Virus record (IMG/VR): IMGVR_UViG_3300025759_000061
Location: 54,834-118,833 of that record
Source of the DNA: a virus
Reading direction: 5' to 3' (one strand)
Length of the DNA stretch: 64,000 nucleotides
Made by a program: the position numbers and the translations under genes. The notes under the pieces are model-generated. The model worked only from the letters and a program-made list of their open reading frames with translations, was not told the origin of the DNA and did not search any database. Positions 56,991 through 64,000 of this stretch are shown one piece after another; position 1 is the first letter of the stretch; each line of letters opens with the position of its first letter.

Positions 56991-57638
56991 GTGTTAAAGA
57001 AGCAAACACTTGATGTGAGATACGACAAGGGTTTCAGGGAATACCAGTTGCCTACGGGTGACTGGGTTCCATCTGTCACCACCATTTTAGGACAGACAAA
57101 GCCAGAATCGGCAAAGGCTGGTCTGGAGAACTGGAGAAAAAGGGTTGGTGATGAGGAAGCCGATAGGATAACCAAAAGAGCCGGTAGCAATGGTGAGAAG
57201 CTACACACAGCTTGTGAGAATTATCTGAAATATGAGGACGTTGAATTTGAAGACGATCCCTTCACCAAATCTTTGTTCATGAATATAAGACCGGTTCTGG
57301 ACAGGATAACACCTTTCACCCAAGAAGTTCAATTGTGGTCAACACGACTCAAGACGGCTGGACGGGTTGATGTTATCGGATTGTTTGACGTTGATATGTC
57401 AATTATCGATTTCAAGAATTCCAGAAAGATGAAGAAACGGGAATGGATTGATGACTATTTCATCCAAGCCACAACCTATTCATTGATGTATTATGAGATG
57501 ACAGGGTGCTTTGTAAAGAACATCGTCATCCCTATGACTTCGTTGGAAGAGAACTACACCAAGATTTTCAAAGGTCAGGTGTTGGACTACAAGGATGAAG
57601 CCATAAAAAGAATCACTAGCTGGAAAGAACCACCATGA
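56991..57638 (+). CDS. PD-(D/E)XK nuclease (Cas4/RecB-like)
   Basis: A GTG start follows the PhoH stop by three bases. SVTTILGQTKP near residue 25, RAGSNGEKLHTACENYL (His-containing helix), GRVDVIGLFDVDMSIIDFKNS (catalytic D...DxK-type block, about 125-144) and FIQATTYSLMYYEMTG (QxxxY motif) define the Cas4/RecB branch. It would cut or resect DNA, perhaps in recombination with UvsX. The exact substrate is unknown. Confidence 0.8.
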   Translation: MLKKQTLDVRYDKGFREYQLPTGDWVPSVTTILGQTKPESAKAGLENWRKRVGDEEADRITKRAGSNGEKLHTACENYLKYEDVEFEDDPFTKSLFMNIRPVLDRITPFTQEVQLWSTRLKTAGRVDVIGLFDVDMSIIDFKNSRKMKKREWIDDYFIQATTYSLMYYEMTGCFVKNIVIPMTSLEENYTKIFKGQVLDYKDEAIKRITSWKEPP

Positions 57639-58585
57639 AAAACGTTTTCATCACATTCTCACTAACCGTCATGATCATGATATTTGGAACACTGTACCTG
57701 TTGAACGAAAATACAGTGGAGTCTCTTGTCAAAAGGAATGTCAACTCTGTTTATCTCGTAGAGAGTGAAAGTATCAATAAAGAAGGTAAGAAGGGTGTTG
57801 GAATGGGCACGGGGTTCCTTTTCAATAAGGAATATGTTGTGACTAATGCCCACGTTGTTGGGAATGCAAAGGTTGTCACCTTGATTAGTAAAGATGGGAA
57901 GAAAATCCGGGTGCCGGTTGTTGCTACGGATGTAGATGCAGATGTTGCAGTGGTCCGGTTGGTTGGTGAGAATGCTAAAAATCCCCCCAGAGTTCTGAGA
58001 TTTTGCAGACGTGATGAGATTGTACTGGGTGAGGATGTAATTGGTATCGGACACCCATGGGGTTTGATCTGGACGATCACACGTGGTATTGTGTCCGGTT
58101 ATGACAGGTTTGCCGGATCAGGACGATCCGTACCATTGGTCCAGACCGACACGAAAATCCTTCAGGGTAATTCTGGTGGTCCATTGATATCCGTAAAAAA
58201 CGATTGTGTTGTAGCCATGAATACAATGGTGAATGTTGCTGATCAGACAAAAGGCAGATTCGGCAACATCCCATTCTCTATTGATGGTGATTATCTCAGA
58301 ACCCGTATCCATGACCTGATCAAACATAAGAAGATTAAGAACCTGATTCTTGGAATCCAGTTCGATAGTGACAAGGGTTTGTATGTCAAGGTGGTTGTGC
58401 CGTTCAGTCTGGCAAGTAAAATAGACATGAGGATCGGTGATATCATCCATTCTATCAATGGTAAGCCGTTGACAGACGTGATGGTGTTGAAATCCACCCT
58501 GTATAAAATCAGGCAGGATGAGAAATTTATCGTTACAGTTCAAAGGGATGGAAAAAAATTGAACATTTTTGGAAAAAACTCTTGA
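57635..58585 (+). CDS. Membrane-anchored HtrA/DegS-like serine protease
   Basis: One N-terminal transmembrane helix (residues 5-23) puts the rest in the periplasm. A trypsin-like domain has the full triad: TNAHVVG (His73), DADVAVVRL (Asp103) and QGNSGGPLI (Ser180). Residues about 230-310 form a PDZ domain (LILGIQFDSDKGLYVKVV, DIIHSINGKPL). The architecture is that of DegS, which cuts the anti-sigma factor RseA. A phage DegS-like enzyme is unusual. It might tune the envelope stress response or remove surface proteins. It overlaps the nuclease gene by four bases. Confidence 0.9.
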   Translation: MKNVFITFSLTVMIMIFGTLYLLNENTVESLVKRNVNSVYLVESESINKEGKKGVGMGTGFLFNKEYVVTNAHVVGNAKVVTLISKDGKKIRVPVVATDVDADVAVVRLVGENAKNPPRVLRFCRRDEIVLGEDVIGIGHPWGLIWTITRGIVSGYDRFAGSGRSVPLVQTDTKILQGNSGGPLISVKNDCVVAMNTMVNVADQTKGRFGNIPFSIDGDYLRTRIHDLIKHKKIKNLILGIQFDSDKGLYVKVVVPFSLASKIDMRIGDIIHSINGKPLTDVMVLKSTLYKIRQDEKFIVTVQRDGKKLNIFGKNS

Positions 58586-58610
58586 CTCTTTGAGAATGTT
58601 CAGGTAGAAC
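58582..58610 (+). promoter_or_regulatory. Sigma70-like promoter for the non-coding transcript
   Basis: TTGACT and TAGAAC are separated by 17 bp; the box overlaps the stop of the HtrA-like gene. No open frame with a start follows for over 400 bases, but three RNA structures do. Confidence 0.55.
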
Positions 58611-58637
58611 TGTAATCAAGAAAGAAGGAAAGAACAA

Positions 58638-58775
58638 ATCAAGTGCTTTGATGGGTTATGGGGTTTGGCCCCCGTCGATAACCACCACCGTGAAGTTCCT
58701 TGTGGTTAAGTGAACAAAACAGTGATCAGATGGCCCGGAAGTCGAGAGCCGGGGTAGCCTTTCAAAGCACTTGAT
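58638..58775 (+). ncRNA. Structured RNA closed by a 14-bp helix
   Basis: ATCAAGTGCTTTGA (58638-58651) pairs perfectly with TCAAAGCACTTGAT (58762-58775). Inside there are three hairpins: GGTTAT-GGGG...CCCC-GTCG-ATAACC (58654-58683), ACCAC...GTGGT (58684-58706) with UUCCUU in its loop, and CCCGG...CCGGG (58734-58753). No protein frame runs through it. No RNA family that I know fits; compare 4.5S, 6S and tmRNA, all rejected. It may be the body of a regulatory RNA. Confidence 0.65.
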
Positions 58776-58786
58776 AAAGAATTTAT

Positions 58787-58876
58787 GGTTGTGGTCGTTT
58801 AATGGAAGACAGTTGATGATTATCTAATCCTTTCTCTAATCATCAAAAGATGTTGGTTCGACTCCAACACACAACC
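58787..58876 (+). ncRNA. tRNA-like element with a 10-bp anticodon-arm hairpin
   Basis: The T-arm GTTGG-TTCGACT-CCAAC (58852-58868) is perfect. The D-arm GTTT-AATGGA-AGAC pairs. The acceptor GTTGTG pairs with CACAAC, with an extra G-C pair at the end (G-1:C73-like). Where the anticodon arm should be, TTGATGATTA (58813-58822) pairs with TAATCATCAA (58837-58846) around a 14-nt loop TCTAATCCTTTCTC. No normal 7-nt anticodon loop exists and no CCA in the usual place, so it cannot act as a decoding tRNA. The loop ends in UCCUUUCUC, the complement of GAGAAAGGA. Confidence 0.65.
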
Positions 58877-58887
58877 AACCCTATTAG

Positions 58888-58919
58888 CTAGAGGTATTTT
58901 CTGTCCTTTCTCCCTCTAG
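58888..58919 (+). ncRNA. Hairpin with a second UCCUUUCUC loop
   Basis: CTAGAGG (58888-58894) pairs with CCTCTAG (58913-58919). The 18-nt loop ends in TCCTTTCTC (58904-58912), the same 9-mer, in the same position next to the 3' stem, as in the tRNA-like element. A terminator follows nine bases later. Confidence 0.7.
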
Positions 58920-58927
58920 GAAACTTG

Positions 58928-58964
58928 ACACCCCTTGGATTAATTTCCATAGGGGTGTTTTTTT
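58928..58964 (+). terminator. Strong rho-independent terminator
   Basis: ACACCCC pairs with GGGGTGT, with inner GG/CC pairs, and is followed by seven T. It ends the non-coding transcript. Confidence 0.9.
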
Positions 58965-58965
58965 G

Positions 58966-58993
58966 TTGACACCAATCTCAGATATGCTATTGT
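58966..58993 (+). promoter_or_regulatory. Sigma70-like early promoter
   Basis: TTGACA and TATTGT are separated by 16 bp and start directly behind the terminator T run. It leads to GAGGAAAGGA and the gene at 59020. Confidence 0.7.
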
Positions 58994-59019
58994 GTAGACA
59001 TAAGAGGAAAGGACACATT

Positions 59020-59199
59020 ATGGATTTCAAATTTTACATTGAGCATCATGGAGCAGTAGACCTGTTTTCCCGTGAGGGTTTCAACGAAAAGGAAGCTGCC
59101 CGTGCATATGCATCCGGTCTGGTATCCAGTCTGGAAGATGGTGACTTCATCAAGTTTGTTGAAGCTGATGAGTTTTATGACAAGAATGAGTATGTGTAA
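59020..59199 (+). CDS. Small early protein, 59 aa
   Basis: ATG 59020 has AGAGGAAAGGA upstream. The acidic product has FYIEHHGAVDLFSREGF and a helix (EKEAARAYASGLVSSL). It is the first gene of the early cassette (59.0-63.8 kb). No family is recognised. Confidence 0.65.
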   Translation: MDFKFYIEHHGAVDLFSREGFNEKEAARAYASGLVSSLEDGDFIKFVEADEFYDKNEYV

Positions 59200-59851: not shown

Positions 59852-59890
59852 CTAGTTATAAGAGAGAAACAGAGAGAAAGGAACTAAGAA

Positions 59891-63787: not shown

Positions 63788-63968
63788 TAGTCTTGTTAAC
63801 GTTGAAGGAAACAAAAAGCACTTAAGACTGGGGGGCAGTACCCCACATCTCCACCATGAGCACATTGAAGTGTTGGCTGTAGAACAAAGCACTCTCGATG
63901 TTAGACAGTTTTGTAAAATGACTGATGTGCTCTTGATGGGGATGAAACAGGATCGATTAGGTGAGTAA
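63759..63968 (+). CDS. Last gene of the window, start uncertain
   Basis: The frame ending HHEHIEVLAVEQSTLDVRQF and MKQDRLGE looks coding, but the only long start (TTG 63759) coincides with a promoter -35. A shorter start behind GAAGGAAAC (about 63802) would fit the promoter but no ATG or GTG is there. A GGGG-GGCAGTA-CCCC hairpin (about 63830-63845) lies within. I give the longest frame. Confidence 0.4.
   Translation: MTFVQRSAINSLVNVEGNKKHLRLGGSTPHLHHEHIEVLAVEQSTLDVRQFCKMTDVLLMGMKQDRLGE
63782..63789 (+). promoter_or_regulatory. Candidate late promoter box (CATAAATA)
   Basis: Same sequence as the box at 49244. It lies in the leader of the last gene. Confidence 0.4.
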
Positions 63969-64000
63969 TGAGTAACTGGAGTTAACTGGTTGGCCGACTG

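Follow-up and report, generated by a model that had tools for sequence, protein, structure and literature searches.

Small RNAs of the alpha-r14 ("cuckoo") class, such as NfeR1 of Sinorhizobium meliloti, present identical anti-Shine-Dalgarno (anti-SD) loops on several hairpins, and the accessible part of the published account supports silencing at ribosome-binding sites with reporter data (PMC10746234). A comparable design is found in a 64,000-nucleotide (nt) stretch of phage DNA, called the window here, which spans positions 54834-118833 of a 118,833-base virus record (G000:C1:54834-118833) and is identical, where compared, to the 161,858-base IMG/VR record G001. Between a serine protease gene and gene 59020, this window holds a predicted structured RNA of ~345 nt, the window RNA, with the 9-mer UCCUUUCUC in two hairpin loops, one of them on a core resembling transfer RNA (tRNA). 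Like the alpha-r14 RNAs, as far as that part of the source describes them, it repeats one anti-SD motif in unpaired loops on unlike stems (PMC10746234). The alpha-r14 RNAs, with NfeR1, are however bacterial, with a length of 123 nt, three hairpins and the motif CCUCCUCCC, whereas the window RNA comes from a phage, measures ~345 nt and has two loops with UCCUUUCUC; the three hairpins, each with an unpaired CCUCCUCCC, that mark the class in the accessible text are not present in it (PMC10746234). That text describes no tRNA-like core for alpha-r14, whereas the window RNA has one. An earlier sequence-only reading of this DNA had pointed to the alpha-r14 RNAs, and the resemblance holds for design (the same motif, several loops, unlike stems) and not for membership (two loops, another motif).

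Other described RNAs share parts of the architecture. Compared with tRNA (RF00005), the core keeps the acceptor, D and T arms and the T loop TTCGACT; where tRNA has its anticodon arm it carries 10 bp and a 14-nt loop with the anti-SD, and it has no CCA. A tRNA-like end joined to a longer helix also recalls transfer-messenger RNA (tmRNA); at the RNA locus there was no Rfam tmRNA match and no call by ARAGORN -m, and a separate permuted tmRNA is encoded by the phage at 63795. The suhB/mmgR family (RF00519) matches 58892-58971 weakly, over hairpin 2 and the terminator and with CUCCCU, at 21.3 bits, short of its cut-off of 41. In the accessible portions of the open-licence literature, no report was found of a tRNA-like scaffold carrying an anti-SD, or of a phage directing such an RNA at early genes of its own.

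Twin anti-Shine-Dalgarno loops on a tRNA-like core

The window RNA is read here, with about even confidence, as an early, trans-acting anti-SD RNA on a tRNA-like scaffold. The phage would make a separate early RNA (58617-58962) acting in trans, whose tRNA-like core and hairpin 2 would present two copies of UCCUUUCUC, mimicking most of the 3' tail of 16S ribosomal RNA (rRNA). The loops would pair over ~9-11 nt with GAGAAAGGA-type sites of early-promoter genes, and this pairing would block or tune ribosome loading on early messenger RNAs (mRNAs). Transcription, binding, repression and timing of the window RNA are what we infer.

The two copies of UCCUUUCUC lie exactly in the hairpin loops to which the sequence-only reading had assigned them, at 58828-58836 and 58904-58912, both on the + strand. 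The same 9-mer is held by unlike stems (TTGATGATTA for loop 1, CTAGAGG for loop 2). When the RNA was shuffled 20,000 times with its dinucleotides kept, two copies never arose, and one or more did in 0.3% of cases. Eight matches were counted in the window against 1.0 expected, namely UCCUUUCUC at the two loops and its complement at six named sites; TCCTTTCT occurs four times on the + strand in 160.8 kb of the phage, twice inside the RNA. UCCUUUCUC shares 8 of its 9 nt (UCCUUUCU) with the end of a 16S tail finishing in CACCUCCUUUCU, which is present in the 16S gene of an alphaproteobacterial genome; a 16-mer of the tail was found in 7 of 41 genomes from the class of a Devosia metagenome-assembled genome (MAG). 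Since the loop has the sense of the 16S tail it cannot pair with 16S rRNA, and it would therefore compete with 16S for ribosome-binding sites. Binding of the loops to ribosomes, which had been offered as another function, is therefore not supported.

That a structured RNA is present is borne out by folding: the 351-nt stretch 58615-58965 reaches -119.3 kcal/mol against -89.7 kcal/mol when shuffled (z -5.4; 0 of 100 shuffles as low). The proposed tRNA-like fold, with a 10-bp arm instead of the anticodon arm, was also recovered, as 58787-58877 matches RF00005 at 34.6 bits, above the cut-off of 29 and with E 1.6e-5 when 601 bases were searched; a faster Rfam scan of the whole window did not list the core. 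ARAGORN makes no call there by default, and a lowered threshold forces a tRNA-Asn(att). The 5-bp anticodon stem and 7-nt loop of tRNA are absent from the core, and AACC follows it instead of the CCA in which 26 of 26 ARAGORN tRNAs listed for the phage end. A third loop with UUCCUU, described earlier at 58689-58701, did not survive, being paired in the folds (UUCCUU ~1% unpaired).

Within its own record, the only other matches of the core model (E up to 0.1) are the two tRNA-Gln genes of the phage. We infer that the core evolved from a tRNA gene, tRNA-Gln being nearest, and that it is a stable scaffold or a processing signal; stability, or a handle for tRNA-processing enzymes, is a guess at why the fold is there. 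The tRNA-Gln likeness, the kept D and T loops and the presence of 26 ARAGORN tRNAs in the phage would also suit a tRNA that has decayed or been remodelled, or a decoy for enzymes that bind or cut tRNA, without any antisense function. We regard this as quite improbable: a perfect 10-bp arm and a 9-mer common to the next hairpin are unlike decay, and the core has neither CCA nor an anticodon loop.

The exposure of loop 2 depends on the fold. GAAGGA at 58624-58629 can pair with 58904-58909, and AGAA at 58631-58634 with 58899-58902. This 5' tract masks loop 2 in the full-length minimum-energy fold, which is 3.8 kcal/mol better than one in which hairpin 2 is forced; with the tract removed from the fold, loop 2 is 94% open. 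The second exposed 9-mer loop of the sequence-only reading thus exists when the 7-bp hairpin 58888-58919 forms and is paired with GAAGGA in the full-length fold, and the masking may make loop 2 conditional. The preference for the tract over the local hairpin, together with the general purine-richness of the phage's early leaders, would fit a structural or processing RNA whose pyrimidine loops serve internal or protein contacts, complementarity to ribosome-binding sites being a by-product. That explanation is improbable in our view, as loop 1 is without an internal partner yet carries the same 9-mer, and shuffles that keep dinucleotides never give it twice.

Signals suited to a separate transcript flank the RNA (Table 1), which occupies a 434-nt gap from the protease stop (58585) to the next gene start (59020). 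The promoter proposed upstream is present as an early-class site whose -35 overlaps the protease stop codon, in a weak version: it scores 8.2 and ranks 54 of 160,512 positions, while the training sites (n=19, all ranked above it) score 14.7-22.1. The strong terminator proposed downstream was found as a hairpin with a U run, though a consensus terminator scan does not list it. The claim of no start-bearing frame for more than 400 bases stood in part. Inside the gap, + strand frames of at least 20 amino acids (aa) are limited to two, of 21 and 24 aa, with TTG starts; a TTG frame at 58963 extends into gene 59020, and - strand frames in the RNA region reach 48 aa. The remaining coordinates of that reading were correct. 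A weak promoter, and the failure to find homologs reported below, are what would be seen if the RNA were not expressed or had arisen by chance, which we consider very improbable against the fold z of -5.4, the Rfam tRNA score, the shuffle test and the terminator-like hairpin.

Table 1. Positions of the window RNA, its signals and putative partner sites, and of related elements in other phages
Feature	Positions	Strand	Remarks
Promoter-like site of the RNA	58582..58610	+	TTGACT, 15 nt, GG, TAGAAC (spacer 17); weak copy of the phage early promoter class
Likely 5' leader, purine-rich (AAGAAAGAAGGAAAG)	58617..58637	+	Putative transcription start, placed by promoter spacing
Domain A	58638..58775	+	14-bp closing stem 58638-58651/58762-58775, branched interior; fold predictions
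tRNA-like core	58787..58877	+	RF00005 match
Acceptor of core, 7 bp	58787-58793/58870-58876	+	
D arm of core	58797-58800/58807-58810	+	Rfam alignment
Arm replacing anticodon arm, 10 bp	58813-58822/58837-58846 (58813..58846)	+	Loop 1 = 58823-58836, TCTAATCCTTTCTC, 14 nt
Anti-SD 9-mer UCCUUUCUC in loop 1	58828..58836	+	91% unpaired
T arm of core	58852-58856/58864-58868	+	Loop TTCGACT
Hairpin 2, CTAGAGG/CCTCTAG, 7 bp	58888..58919	+	Loop 2 with UCCUUUCUC at 58904-58912
Intrinsic terminator-like hairpin and U run	58927..58965	+	-20.5 kcal/mol
Early-class promoter of gene 59020	58966..58993	+	Directly 3' of the terminator-like hairpin
Leader of gene 59020 (GGAAAGGACA..ATG)	59007..59022	+	Strongest partner of loop 2 among 12 leaders, -14.7 kcal/mol (3128, -14.6)
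GAGAAAGGA ribosome-binding site, gene 59891	59874..59882	+	
Further GAGAAAGGA sites	3111, 12304, 60330, 60675, 61015	+	
tRNA-like elements with anti-SD loops in other phages (L375-L451)	No more than 330 nt upstream of the gene start (position 1501; L396, L397 1120; L423 639)		

Complementarity to the early leaders of the phage

The complement of UCCUUUCUC had been named as the ribosome-binding site of six genes (3128, 12318, 59891, 60346, 60693 and 61032), and 6 of 6 carry GAGAAAGGA at ribosome-binding distance; 11 such sites were counted on the + strand of the phage sequence examined. Pairing was scored on the leaders of 239 genes obtained by a simple calling rule, 20 of them marked early by promoter type and 219 others. 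Genes 12318 and 61032 are given other starts by that rule, so they lie outside this test and were included in a separate comparison of 12 leaders. Loop 1 pairs at a mean of -9.81 kcal/mol with the early leaders versus -5.99 with the others, and shuffled loops are as low in 2 of 100 cases for early leaders, 18 of 100 for others and 7 of 100 for all leaders. For loop 2 the means are -11.6 kcal/mol (early) versus -7.7 (others), and the shuffled counts are 8, 4 and 2 of 100, respectively. By these counts loop 1 is selective for early leaders and loop 2 fits leaders generally; the excess complementarity over shuffled loops that was looked for is thus present in loop 1 on early leaders and less specific in loop 2.

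Contiguous complementarity to a loop of at least 8 nt (a few adjoining stem bases counted) occurs in 13/20 early versus 13/219 other leaders. In those 26 leaders loop 1 by itself matches up to 11 nt, or 12 when one base of the stem is added, and the 16S tail matches 8 at most. On the six GAGAAAGGA leaders of the window, loop 1 pairs ~2.5 kcal/mol better than the 16S tail. The pairing idea behind the original proposal, an antisense regulator of the early mRNAs, is therefore backed by early-leader complementarity, the shuffle test and an independent covarying family in other phages (next section); its ribosome-binding alternative and third loop found no support. The early leaders are a class with a common promoter and the leader type ATAGAGAGAAACAGAGAAAGGA, of which the RNA's own promoter is a weak member. 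A strongly conserved early promoter-leader module (TTGACTCCGGTCAGCCCTTCTGGCATTAT...TATAGAGAGAAAC..GAGAAAGGA) is repeated before many small genes (window 12264, 12491, 60281, 60626, 61223, 62083 and others), and the exact module was found in no IMG/VR record besides the same virus.

Gene 59020 lies next to the window RNA and matches loop 2, with a terminator-like hairpin and its own promoter between them. The RNA could be a cis leader or attenuator of this gene, its loops sequestering the ribosome-binding site and its terminator being read through under some condition. In keeping with such a role, the 59020 leader is the best of the 12 partners of loop 2 (Table 1), over 9 matched nt, and the primase-leader tRNA-like elements described below precede their gene by 16-247 nt, several with a long hairpin between. 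A cis role nevertheless seems unlikely to us. Directly behind the strong terminator stands a complete early-class promoter for 59020, so this gene need not be read from the window RNA, and of the 11 remaining leaders six pair more strongly with loop 1 (-12.9 to -13.3 kcal/mol) than that of 59020 (-10.3). Action in trans is favoured because the RNA has promoter-like and terminator-like signals of its own and 59020 has its own strong promoter right behind.

Several points weigh against an early, trans-acting regulator. The promoter of the window RNA is weak, its full-length fold masks loop 2, and loop 2 shows no clear specificity for early leaders. A milder preference for these leaders is seen with the plain 16S tail too (8/100 shuffles), as expected for ribosome-binding sites, and the anti-SD motif is near-generic for the genes of this phage, so pairing would be broad. 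The nearest analog family sits in cis, not in trans. Finally, no homolog of the window RNA was found outside the same virus, which is not a disproof of conservation given that virus records are mostly fragments.

tRNA-like elements before primase genes of other phages

No homolog of the window RNA was found by blastn in 50,697 phage records, in plasmids, or with a loop and T-arm pattern in 385 genomes. Models R1 and R2 gave nothing in 46 other virus records (mostly fragments), drawn from 87 loci comprising 7 other helicase loci and 80 of at least 600 capsid-protein loci, except one R1 match (E 0.02) taken for chance, as it lies inside a frame read by eye as a recombination endonuclease. Model R2, which covers domain A, found no relative in those 46 records or in 289 genomes of the class of the Devosia MAG, under stricter filters and with no positive control. 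A protease-neighbour search returned the same virus only, as did a D-loop pattern among the matches listed, and a blastn and nhmmer follow-up of the core gave the same virus and otherwise just generic tRNA likeness. The twin 9-mer pattern matched 115 stretches; of 105 distinct places folded, only the same virus joins a twin 9-mer with a tRNA-like core. A T-arm-like stretch near a twin 9-mer at four other places was taken for chance.

A pattern of the anti-SD 9-mer, 10-32 nt and a T-loop motif, run over IMG/VR, retrieved 29 stretches. By eye 9 or 10 of them are tRNA-like, with the 9-mer in the arm replacing the anticodon arm (L350/L363/L367/L372, which are one sequence, and L356, L364, L371, L373 and L374; L369 is doubtful). 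The rest were set aside: one belongs to the same virus, ARAGORN calls three as ordinary tRNAs (L353, L357, L368) and 15 were taken for chance. Three sequences (L350, L356, L374) lie just before the same gene, whose 736-aa product has a DUF3987 domain. The named relatives nearest to this product carry the annotation DNA primase and come mostly from actinobacterial phages (Molivia, 37% identity); in 161 records of these relatives, Gordonia accounts for 68, Microbacterium for 36 and Arthrobacter for 15, and Stenotrophomonas and Serratia also appear. Because of these relatives and of WhiB-like genes seen by eye, the hosts of the primase-leader phages are probably actinobacterial.

Examination of 77 primase-gene loci (L375-L451) showed a T arm in 75/77 leaders versus 25/604 control stretches. 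The leaders comprise 58 distinct sequences: 44 have an anti-SD tRNA-like element by rule (8 of these also a real tRNA), 6 a real tRNA only and 8 neither, six of these last showing a T arm outside any tRNA. CTCCTTT is present in 36/45 distinct loops, against a mean of 1.9 (maximum 7) in shuffled loops. In 8 loci scanned with Rfam, nothing reached the cut-off. In an alignment of 36/45 elements (A4), which omits near-duplicates or elements with a longer arm (L381, L391, L405, L408, L409, L430, L440, L443, L449), pairing holds in 91.7% of cells, against 69.0% after shuffling; both sides change in 170 cells, against 53.6, and covariation scores 0.696, against 0.267, none of these values being equalled in 500 shuffles. 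Both-side change is seen in 16/18 pairs, a count not unusual alone (78/500 shuffles). Versions of A4 with slid partners, which keep relatedness, reach at most 45% paired cells and a score of 0.155. For some elements (e.g. L387, L401, L407, L411, L435) inspection by eye shows the acceptor to be wrongly assigned; A4 does not draw on that assignment.

The loops were also compared with the sites they precede. Two of 47 distinct elements, of a second, non-anti-SD kind (in L404 and L443), were dropped beforehand, and sites were swapped among 28 representatives of the other 45. A loop is complementary to the site of its own gene over 7.25 nt on average, versus 6.56 with swapped sites (0/10,000 permutations as high). 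On energy the same test is weak (-11.6 versus -10.9, 290/10,000 permutations), with 16 elements better than, 2 equal to and 10 worse than the swapped average. Examples of loop and site are CTTCTTCTCC with GGAGAAGAAG (L412, L422) and TCTCCTTTT with AAAAGGAGA (L414). The covariation and the better fit to own than to swapped sites mark the primase-leader element as a genuine structured RNA, and its pairing with its own gene's site is probable.

The design recurs before other genes, at L364 ~997-1079 and L371 5061-5143 (- strand), both before a gene read by eye as zinc-ribbon-like, and one such element stands in another context at L373 344-435 (43.4 bits with model R3, built from the primase-leader set). 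The second kind of tRNA-like element in L404 and L443 (GGGCCTG...CAGGTCC) precedes the primase gene without an anti-SD loop. Bacterial genomes gave 10 pattern matches, one an ordinary tRNA-Leu and none read as such an element. In Arthrobacter phage Molivia, a "tRNA (undet)" lies between the single-stranded DNA-binding protein (SSB) and primase genes (L452 890-962); by eye this primase leader has a tRNA-Gly and the undetermined tRNA and no anti-SD loop. The hairpin TGAGCA...TGCTCA before the "tRNA (undet)" also precedes tRNA-like elements of IMG/VR loci such as L396. Nonagon gave no R3 match, and that of Stenotrophomonas virus Jojan60 (22.3 bits) was rejected, as it falls on an annotated tRNA-Leu. 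Just before the DNA primase gene of Jojan60 (L454 ~1004-1091), a short stretch resembles, by eye, the tRNA end of a tmRNA (GGTTTCGACGG ... GGTTCGATTCC ... CCACCA), with no room for a tag frame.

The primase-leader elements resemble the window core in that a hairpin with an anti-SD (16S-tail) loop takes the place of the anticodon arm on a tRNA-like fold, and in having no CCA. Unlike the window RNA, they sit in cis just before one gene, lack a D stem and have a shorter arm. Membership of the window core in this family was rejected, with no R3 match at 58787-58877; up to E 10, the six R3 matches on the window are five tRNA genes and 58864-58964 (13.7 bits, E 0.11). Kinship of L364 and L371 with the core was also rejected: model R1, made from the window RNA, scores them at 26.7 and 24.0 bits but reaches 28.7 at an ARAGORN tRNA-Asn stretch (L413; 55 loci), and since a real tRNA outscores them the likeness is that of tRNA only. 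The window RNA and the primase-leader elements are treated here as one design, perhaps of independent origin, and not as a single family.

The phage, its host and the meaning of the design

Baseplate, tail, scaffold and terminase proteins of the window phage match phage families, and the best terminase relatives among the matches listed are T4-like cyanophages (~50% identity). The phage is T4-like. Its host is probably alphaproteobacterial, because its permuted tmRNA is of the alphaproteobacterial type and its ribosome-binding sites fit the alphaproteobacterial 16S tail. The tmRNA occupies window 63795-64000 and continues at L131 11104-11466 (RF01849, 130.4 bits; RF04321, 102.4 bits). After it come ~500 nt of noncoding sequence, structured-looking by eye, with no Rfam match at cut-off. 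The gene before the window RNA (57635-58585) encodes a phage-borne serine protease of the trypsin type (DegQ/DegS-like), in which an N-terminal membrane segment is probable by eye.

A broader proposal, tentative and in our estimate rather doubtful, is that phages repeatedly turned tRNA genes into anti-SD RNAs, keeping the elbow and exchanging the anticodon arm for a hairpin that mimics the 16S tail. The product would lie in cis before primase in phages that are probably actinobacterial, its loop changing together with its site, and in the phage described here it would be a free twin-loop RNA aimed at early mRNAs. Anti-SD small RNAs are already known in bacteria; the tRNA-like scaffold, and use by a phage on its own early genes, would be new to the open-licence literature searched. 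Annotation may mistake such elements for odd tRNAs. With its covariation support, the family in other phages opens the principle to reporter tests and hints that phage tRNA genes may be raw material for translation control. If true, the proposal would set these RNAs apart as a separate regulatory class, possibly with tRNA-processing enzymes releasing or switching them.

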